NCBI GenBank assembly: GCA_028868515.1
Contig: JAGWUI010000005.1
Span: 62,001-126,000 of the forward strand
DNA length: 64,000 nucleotides
Direction: 5' to 3'
Origin: Gammaproteobacteria bacterium
GTDB taxonomy: Bacteria; Pseudomonadota; Gammaproteobacteria; Pseudomonadales; Moraxellaceae
Shown: positions 30,614-33,023 of the stretch, one piece after another
Layout of the letters: every line of letters starts with the position of its first letter
Numbering within the stretch: position 1 is the stretch's first letter
Notes under the pieces: model-generated
Told to the model about the DNA's origin: nothing
The model's database searches: none
Seen by the model: the letters and a program-made list of their open reading frames with translations, nothing else
Position numbers and translations under genes: made by a program

Positions 30614-30897
30614 TTAGAATATAGGTGCAATGGGCTTAGGCTTGTTGCACTATACCTGCTTTATACATTAAAATATTTTTTGATAAATATCAAAACTTTA
30701 AAAATATTTAAAAGCCAGCTTGCTATTCCTAACAAAAGTAATTACATGCTATATGTTATAAGTCGCAAAAAATATTATTACAGAAGGCTCAAGGAAGGAA
30801 CTTCTAGCATTGCTTGATGATACTGATCTCTTTGAAATAAATTAACTTTGATAGTTATTGAATATTCATAATGTATTTAAATGGAGGAGTACAAATT
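30614..30897 (+). other. AT-rich junction between argD and the kinase gene
   Basis: No gene was seen. GTGCAA and TTGCAC (about 30632-30652) form a small inverted repeat after argD. The rest is strongly AT-rich and may contain the promoter of the kinase-phosphatase pair or the left edge of acquired DNA. No direct repeat marking an insertion was found by eye. Confidence 0.4.
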
Positions 30898-31641
30898 TTG
30901 GAAGTTTATAGACATGCAAGTTATGAATTCAATGTTATAAAAAGAATTGGTGGTGGAGGGTTTGGTGAAGTATTCGAGGTTACTTTACCAACATGTGATT
31001 TTAAATATGCGTTAAAGCGATTCGCTCCACAGAAAGATGTGGCAGAGGCCTCTTTTTTATCAGAAGGAGAATTATTAGCAAGATTTAGTCAGGAAATGAG
31101 ATATCAAACTGATTGTATGCATAAAAATATAGTATCAATATGCATAGTTCACTCAGGAGATGCTCCATTTTTTGTAATGGATCTTGCAGATTCAGATTTA
31201 GGAAAATTAATCACAGAAAATAGTCTATCTAGAAATGAAAAAATTAGAGTGATCCTTGATGTTATGGATGGTTTAGAGTACCTTCATAAGAAAGGTTTAC
31301 TCCATAGAGATATAAAGCCTGCAAATATATTAAGATTTGATGGAATTTTTAAAATTTCAGATTTTGGTTTGATTAAAAATTTAAATCAAAAAAAGCATCC
31401 ACATGATGTCATGAGTGCAATTGGAATTTGCTTAGGCACAAAACGTTATATGGCTCCTGAAGTAGAAGAAGCTGCTCACTATACCGTTCAGTCGGACATA
31501 TATGCACTTGGAGCAGTTATATCTGAACTCCAAATAAATGAATTAGACACTATTGCAAATAAGTGTACAGCGCAAAGAGTAAGTTCAAGATATCAATCAA
31601 TAGCAGATATTAGAAACGACATTTTAAGAGTAATAAAATGA
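30898..31641 (+). CDS. Compact Ser/Thr (Hanks-type) protein kinase
   Basis: 247 aa, a bare kinase domain without membrane or PASTA segments. The glycine loop RIGGGGFGEVFEV is near residue 16. ATP lysine Lys40 (YALKRF), catalytic HRDIKPAN (136-143), DFG (155-157) and APE (186-188) are all present, so it should be active. I prefer the TTG at 30898 because GGAGGAG (30883-30889) sits exactly 8 nt upstream. The ATG at 30871 would place that strong Shine-Dalgarno inside the gene. The stop overlaps the phosphatase start (ATGA). AT-rich codons (AGA, ATA) unlike the neighbours suggest horizontal transfer. Targets are unknown. Confidence 0.9.
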   Translation: MEVYRHASYEFNVIKRIGGGGFGEVFEVTLPTCDFKYALKRFAPQKDVAEASFLSEGELLARFSQEMRYQTDCMHKNIVSICIVHSGDAPFFVMDLADSDLGKLITENSLSRNEKIRVILDVMDGLEYLHKKGLLHRDIKPANILRFDGIFKISDFGLIKNLNQKKHPHDVMSAIGICLGTKRYMAPEVEEAAHYTVQSDIYALGAVISELQINELDTIANKCTAQRVSSRYQSIADIRNDILRVIK

Positions 31642-32408
31642 ACTTTAATTTAAATTGCGTTTCAGCTTTTTCAGAACCAAGGGATAAATTCTTAACTGAA
31701 AAGGTTAAGCAGAATGAAGATTCACTATTGACTCCAGTGAAGAAAGCAAATGGTTTTCTATTTGGGGTTGCCGATGGCCTTGGATCTTACAAAGGTGCGC
31801 GAGAAGCCTCCAATTTTGTTTGTGATTATCTGCAAAATCATCAAACAATCAGTCATAATTACTTAGAAAACTCTTTTAACTTAGAGCTTAAAACAGCTTT
31901 TAATAACTTTATTGACAAAATTAATGGCGATTATGTTAAAGCGTCTACAACTCTATCACTTTGCTTTTTGGATGATTTTGGTTTAAGCATATGGCATGTT
32001 GGTGATTGTAGAGTCTATATAAAACAAGGTACTAAACTAATTCAAATTACAAATGATCATACTCAATATCAAAAATTACTAGATAAAAAAATATACAGTA
32101 AGAAGGAGCTAATAGACAAAAAAATCAGCCAGAGCACTCTAACAAATGCAATTTCTTCATTTATCAGTCTAGATAACGATTATATTTTTATTTCATACGA
32201 CTCACTAAAAGCAGAATATGGTTCAGATCTTTCAATCTTTATTATGTCTGATGGAGCGCATCACTTTTGGGAACAAAGGAAAATGTTTAGTAAATTTACG
32301 ATGAGTGATGTTATTAAATTTAGTAATGCTTTAAAAAGAAGAATTGAAAATAAAGGAGCTATTGATGACTACACATCAATAGGAGTTACTTTTAATCTGA
32401 TTTTTTAA
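31638..32408 (+). CDS. PP2C-family Ser/Thr phosphatase paired with the kinase
   Basis: 256 aa. PP2C metal-site motifs: NEDSLL, GVADGLGSYKGAREAS, IWHVGDCRVYI, FIMSDGAHHFW and the C-terminal DDYTSIGVTF aspartate. The last beta-strand position usually written GxDN is DDY here. No membrane or sensor domain was seen. It overlaps the kinase stop by 4 nt (ATGA), so the two are translated as a unit and probably act on the same substrates in opposite directions. The base composition is as AT-rich as in the kinase gene. A third partner, such as a vWA protein of TerY-P triads or a T6SS cluster, is absent. Confidence 0.88.
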   Translation: MNFNLNCVSAFSEPRDKFLTEKVKQNEDSLLTPVKKANGFLFGVADGLGSYKGAREASNFVCDYLQNHQTISHNYLENSFNLELKTAFNNFIDKINGDYVKASTTLSLCFLDDFGLSIWHVGDCRVYIKQGTKLIQITNDHTQYQKLLDKKIYSKKELIDKKISQSTLTNAISSFISLDNDYIFISYDSLKAEYGSDLSIFIMSDGAHHFWEQRKMFSKFTMSDVIKFSNALKRRIENKGAIDDYTSIGVTFNLIF

Positions 32409-32434: not shown

Positions 32435-32651
32435 AAAAAACCGCAACAGCCTCTATGTTCACTTTAACTTAAATCGCTAAAGAGGCTTGTCGCGGTATTT
32501 GGTATTTTGACCTCTCTCCGCTCTTACTTCATAGAGCAAGATGGTAGTAGACGGCGCTGATAATAAAATACCAATTGTACGGAGAATGTAGGCTCTTACC
32601 TAAACCATCCAACAGCTCGCAAAACAGAGTCCATGCAGAACGCTCCGTATT
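32435..32651 (-). ncRNA. Structured small RNA candidate (about 215 nt), family not recognised
   Basis: Transcribed leftward from a strong extended -10 promoter to a clear terminator, with no ORF. Helix P1 is 32643-32649 with 32578-32584 (TACGGAG/CTCCGTA). P2 is 32565-32574 with 32499-32508 (perfect 10 bp, TTGGTATTTT/AAAATACCAA) and encloses a TGCTCT/AGAGCG hairpin. The terminator stem is 32481-32495 with 32441-32454 (CCGC.ACA.GCCTCT type, one bulge), then T6 (32440-32435). Four GGA triplets occur. It is not 6S, tmRNA, SRP or RNase P RNA as I know them. A CsrA/RsmA-binding or Hfq-dependent role is possible but unproven. Confidence 0.7.
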
Positions 32652-32657
32652 GGGCGC

Positions 32658-32686
32658 ATTATAGCATATTTTTTAATCAGACCAGT
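32658..32686 (-). promoter_or_regulatory. Extended -10 promoter of the small RNA
   Basis: On the minus strand TGCTATAAT gives a perfect TATAAT (32663-32658) with an upstream TGn element, followed by a GC-rich discriminator (GCGCCC). The -35 is weak, as usual for extended -10 promoters. The start is expected near 32651. Confidence 0.75.
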
Positions 32687-32702
32687 GCCACTTATCGGGC
32701 TA

Positions 32703-33023
32703 TTATCTATTCTGACTCGCAATATTAAAGATCTGATTGAGCTGTGCAACAACTGCGGGTGGAAGTGCAGGCATCACTGGTGCACTAGATGTTTCTACAC
32801 GAATGCCTTGCATTCCGTTCGTAGAAATAGGATTGATCTCAGTTGCGACAGTGCCAATCTGCCCATTCGAATCATACTGTGGCAAAACAGGCTGTAACTG
32901 TGCCTGCGATTGAGTTGGAAGCGCAACCTCATCCAATTCATTATTAGTCATCGTGGTCACATGGGCAAATGCCTGACTACTACCCGCAATCAATACTACA
33001 CTTACCATCAAATACTTAATCAT
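32703..33023 (-). CDS. Small exported protein of unknown function
   Basis: 106 aa. A signal peptide (MIKYLMVSVVLIAGSSQAFA, cleavage after AFA) is followed by a polar, Gln/Pro-rich mature part with no recognised domain. I chose ATG 33023 because AGGAG lies 7 nt upstream. An in-frame TTG 15 bp earlier contains that Shine-Dalgarno. The gene ends just before the small-RNA promoter. Confidence 0.72.
   Translation of the reverse strand: MIKYLMVSVVLIAGSSQAFAHVTTMTNNELDEVALPTQSQAQLQPVLPQYDSNGQIGTVATEINPISTNGMQGIRVETSSAPVMPALPPAVVAQLNQIFNIASQNR

Follow-up and report, generated by a model that had tools for sequence, protein, structure and literature searches.

We found that the minus strand of the window, the whole 64,000-nucleotide stretch of DNA analysed here, carries a predicted intergenic RNA gene of about 217 nt (~32651..32435), which is best read as a member of a new, uncatalogued small RNA (sRNA) family of a well-known kind, restricted to part of one Moraxellaceae genus. 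The gene is flanked by a small exported-protein gene, whose stop is at 32703, and by a convergent PP2C gene ending at 32408; it has its own promoter and an intrinsic terminator and holds no conserved ORF, all of which are marks of an sRNA gene. The initial annotation had proposed, from the letters of this one sequence, that a structured sRNA of no recognised family is encoded here, complete with promoter and terminator. Every part that it named is present on the minus strand, coordinates included, and its central claim is supported by the lack of an Rfam match, the conserved orthologues, the promoter and the terminator, as well as by substitutions that are gathered in unpaired columns. Conservation, which is invisible to the reader of a single sequence, is stronger evidence for an RNA gene than the sequence anatomy. 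The uncatalogued family that is added here comes with an anatomy (start, end and conserved rod) that is enough for a direct test. The features of the locus, compared with two relatives of the same genus (G001 and G002), are as follows:

32435..32651, minus strand: predicted small RNA, ~217 nt, with a predicted start 7 nt past the -10, orthologues in G001 and G002, 229-276 bits with a covariance model of the three orthologues, and 84% identity to G002
32658..32666, minus strand: extended -10 element TGC-TATAAT, read from the sequence and present as TGCTATAAT / TGCTATGAT in both relatives
32667..32700, minus strand: conserved upstream promoter region (GAT.A.TGG .. TGATTAAAAAA) with a weak -35, from comparison of the window, G001 and G002
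32578..32649, minus strand: domain 1, with P1 closing a variable loop that holds conserved GAGCU, GGAU and AGGUAAGAGCC segments
32499..32574, minus strand: domain 2, the P2 rod (basal 10-bp helix, internal loop, bulged upper stem and inner hairpin)
32435..32495, minus strand: intrinsic terminator, its long loop containing a conserved UUAAAGUGAACA, with stem and T6 kept in the relatives
32703..33020, minus strand: small exported-protein gene directly upstream of the RNA, without a Pfam match

Orthologues, gene order and substitution pattern

A BLAST search of the other three genus genomes gave orthologues of the RNA in two, G001 and G002, at 81-82% identity. Both likewise follow the exported-protein gene on its 3' side, and their promoter and T6 terminator are conserved. 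The 5' gene order sat - trmL - exported protein - RNA is shared by the window and G002, in the latter directly visible across two overlapping contigs; in G001, a separate contig has the exported-protein gene at its end and also carries trmL. An apparent second copy of the RNA in G002 was rejected, since it reflects an assembly break: within the RNA, the ends of the two contigs share ~141 nt. The 3' neighbour is always convergent, being an iron-type alcohol dehydrogenase gene in G001 and G002 and a PP2C/kinase pair in the window. Because the genes on the 3' side run convergently in each of the three genomes, so that no same-strand gene follows the RNA, we rejected a cis-regulatory leader or riboswitch. 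An association with the kinase/PP2C pair was also rejected, as the pair does not adjoin the RNA in the relatives; it may be an insertion beside the sRNA terminator. Within the pair (30871-32408, plus strand), the Ser/Thr protein kinase gene overlaps the PP2C-type phosphatase gene, and the kinase matches PD-T4-6-type defence kinases of PADLOC, although such matches are common for any kinase of this sort.

The fourth species, represented by a complete, single-contig genome (G003), has neither the RNA nor the exported-protein gene, and its trmL is followed by other genes. Presence and absence of the two genes are therefore joint across the four genus genomes (at least two of which are metagenome assemblies), which suggests that they were gained or lost together. 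The sRNA is best read as young, and a congeneric single-contig genome without it illustrates that sRNAs can be young and lineage-bound. The exported protein, which has a conserved N-terminal half (MTNxELDEV..QLQPVLPxYDSNGQIGG), was found in only three genus genomes among the 299 family genomes.

When the window was compared with G002, the RNA as a whole was 84% identical, with the P2 domain at 95% (94.9%), the terminator at 82% and domain 1 at 76%. The corresponding values were 85% for sat (66% at third codon positions), 60% at the nucleotide level for the exported-protein ORF and 55% for the gap between trmL and that ORF. The promoter gap (50 nt) was 75% identical, compared to 55% for the other intergenic gap. 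Using the consensus fold, we found variable columns at 14 of 126 paired positions versus 38 of 93 unpaired ones (p = 3e-7), and within P2 at 1 of 56 versus 6 of 20 (p = 0.001). Since the consensus fold is derived from the same three sequences, we repeated the test with the window-only fold and obtained p = 0.005 (whole RNA) and p = 0.002 (P2). Compensatory changes had been suggested as a check, and one double-sided change, in the terminator, did appear; this number is not above that in shuffles, covariation being scarce because just three close sequences are compared. A C-G to U-G change among the orthologues keeps its pair in P1.

Promoter, fold and coding capacity

The extended -10 sequence TGCTATAAT occurs at this site only on the minus strand of the window and at one other site on the plus strand, and an AT-rich segment lies upstream of it. 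Because there is no good -35 and a simple promoter scan gave no -35/-10 pair, the promoter call rests on the extended -10, which both relatives conserve. Judging from the comparison with the relatives, the conserved region 32667..32700 is possibly a regulator site or a UP-like site.

This promoter bears on whether the RNA is instead the structured 3'-UTR tail of the upstream exported-protein mRNA, the two forming one unit. The gene and the RNA share a strand, are adjacent and lie ~50 nt apart in the window, both are missing from the fourth species, and no terminator-like site was reported between them by a scan limited to loops of 3-8, a limit that caused it to miss the RNA's own long-looped terminator. 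However, a conserved extended -10 stands between gene and RNA, and the protein diverges fast (44-55% at the amino acid level, 60% at the nucleotide level) while the RNA does not, and we consider a 3'-UTR rather improbable.

In the fold of the RNA, P1 is UACGGAG/CUCCGUA (7 bp, 32649-32643 with 32584-32578) and P2 is UUGGUAUUUU/AAAAUACCAA (10 bp, 32574-32565 with 32508-32499), with an inner hairpin at ~32541-32522 inside the P2 domain; the terminator stem pairs 32495-32481 with 32454-32441 and is followed by T6 at 32440-32435. The outer pairs of the terminator have a probability of 1.0 in the window fold. P1 forms in the window with P ~0.87 for an RNA start at 32651 or 32650 and is outcompeted (P ~0.01) when four extra 5' nucleotides are included, and its probability in the relatives is 0.85-0.99. 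The window RNA contains GUAAGAGC twice, and in the relatives both domains have GCUCU-type partners; a strand exchange between the inner hairpins is thus conceivable in principle, as a possible conformational switch.

That such a layout was very unlikely to arise by chance, as the initial annotation had it, holds for the long helices: 3 of 300 dinucleotide shuffles contained a perfect helix of at least 10 bp with a loop above 20, and the RNA has five helices of at least 7 bp versus a mean of 0.87 in such shuffles. Thermodynamic stability did not bear it out to the same extent. The fold z-score of the whole RNA (-3.9) comes mostly from the terminator, without which it is -1.7 in the window and -1.2 and -0.75 in the relatives, with no convincing excess of stability over shuffled sequence in any of the three. 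This weak signal outside the terminator, together with the narrow distribution, is what would be expected of a conserved promoter-terminator stretch that has no RNA function, or of a chance fold. Nevertheless, the substitutions follow the structure, and P2 is 95% identical versus ~66% at nearby third codon positions, which makes both of these readings highly unlikely.

With regard to coding capacity, no minus-strand ORF that covers the RNA reaches 60 aa. The window has a 12-codon ATG frame near 32629 with an SD-like GGAG, which we rejected as a leader ORF, since neither its start nor its frame is kept in the relatives. The sizes of the indels among the orthologues (1, 1, 1, 2, 2 and 3 nt) and the lack of conservation of the ATG both speak against a conserved small ORF.

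Family identity and range

The initial annotation had been unable to place the RNA in a known family, and our Rfam 15 search agrees, as no family matched any of the three orthologues at gathering or permissive thresholds. Searching 299 family genomes and 391 order genomes with the covariance model gave no credible member outside the genus, under stricter filters that could miss very diverged relatives; the best weak hit beyond the genus was rejected because it lies inside a rhodanese-like coding gene. Plasmid and phage collections gave no match to the RNA, and neither did viral contigs searched with core patterns and the upstream protein. A core-pattern search of genome contigs matched only in two MAGs that were already among the orthologues.

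Lineage-specific regulatory RNAs are common in bacteria. The sRNAs of A. baumannii are described as largely lineage-bound, with only seven of those in ATCC 17978 conserved in selected other Pseudomonadales, so that a narrow range is ordinary (PMC11472050). One such RNA is Aar, an sRNA of ~100 nt found in Acinetobacter only (PMC11472050, PMC12802169), whose conservation is highest in two 3' hairpins (PMC11472050). Aar and the candidate are alike in being free-standing intergenic genes with their own promoter and terminator, bound to one genus and most conserved in hairpins. They differ in length (~100 nt versus ~217 nt) and in lineage, the candidate being confined to its own genus among the family genomes searched.

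We also compared the RNA with two widespread families. Long rods are typical of 6S-type RNAs, and the candidate resembles 6S RNA as a free-standing structured RNA of ~180-220 nt with a long rod, but it consists of two domains and a terminator, whereas 6S is one rod with a central bubble. That it might be a missing 6S RNA was rejected, since 6S (RF00013) is found elsewhere in all genus genomes; the sole RF00013 match in the window's genome is at G000:C53:88272-88454 (99.7 bits), and RF00013 did not match the candidate even at E = 10.

CsrB and RsmZ RNAs carry many GGAs in hairpin loops. Four GGA triplets, which the initial annotation had offered as fitting a CsrA-type protein, are indeed present in the window RNA, and each of the four genus genomes carries csrA, which shares a contig with the RNA in the window's genome. 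The candidate thus shares several GGA triplets and a csrA-bearing genome with CsrB/RsmZ, but its GGAs are few and mostly paired, and the binding idea fares poorly on them: only three sites are common to all three species, two of which are in helices in all three, while the third is unpaired in G001, partly unpaired in G002 and paired in the window fold. In addition, a GacA-type TGTAAG..CTTACA box was not seen upstream, and there is no Rfam match to CsrB/Rsm. A CsrA sponge of the CsrB/RsmZ type is therefore extremely unlikely.

Proposed function

We infer that the RNA is probably a trans-acting structured regulatory sRNA of ~217 nt in part of one Moraxellaceae genus, an inference that extends to its transcription, Hfq binding and targets. 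This reading is drawn from a structured, non-coding RNA that has a conserved promoter and no same-strand gene after it, in a genus where Hfq is encoded in all four genomes. Transcription would start at ~32651 from the RNA's own extended -10 promoter, with read-through from transcripts of the upstream exported-protein gene also possible, and would end at the Rho-independent terminator at 32435. The transcript is predicted to fold into three parts, namely a P1-closed 5' domain, the P2 rod, which would be rigid, and the terminator. Pairing with mRNAs would then involve exposed stretches of domain 1, the terminator loop or both, and Hfq would protect the RNA and match it to its targets, with the P2 rod as a conserved scaffold or a protein-binding platform. 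In a narrow test for a conserved target, exact complements of two conserved segments had no shared second site in the three genomes, and the only extra site occurred in G002 alone (L033:787-810).

P2, the most conserved part, is double-stranded and would be suited to binding a protein no less than to base pairing. The RNA might accordingly work by having its P2 rod bound by a protein, as a 6S-like polymerase decoy or otherwise, and so sequester or guide that protein, and the near invariance of the paired positions in P2 is in keeping with this. However, the real 6S RNA lies elsewhere in the genome and RF00013 does not recognise the candidate, and there is no candidate partner protein; we regard this mode of action as unlikely. 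Combining such binding with the shared distribution of the neighbouring gene, the RNA and the fast-evolving exported protein might make up a unit of two genes that one branch of the genus gained, with P2 binding a dedicated protein in a new RNA-protein system, which we consider a long shot.

Further sequence matches to the RNA came up elsewhere in the genomes. Transposase-like genes in G002 and the window's genome (L029:1136-1789, minus strand, and L030:1234-1887, plus strand) carry a 22-nt stretch complementary to the P2/terminator junction of the RNA, with one or two mismatches. This match was judged to be due to chance, since it lies inside a coding gene and is weaker in the RNAs of the relatives. 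A sequence match in hemA, also inside a coding gene, was judged likewise. Another match, at L033:787-810, is 24 nt long and corresponds to the complement of the terminator loop; an exact search placed it in G002 and in none of the other genomes, where it is on the sense strand, ~200 nt ahead of the gene for a small His-rich exported protein.
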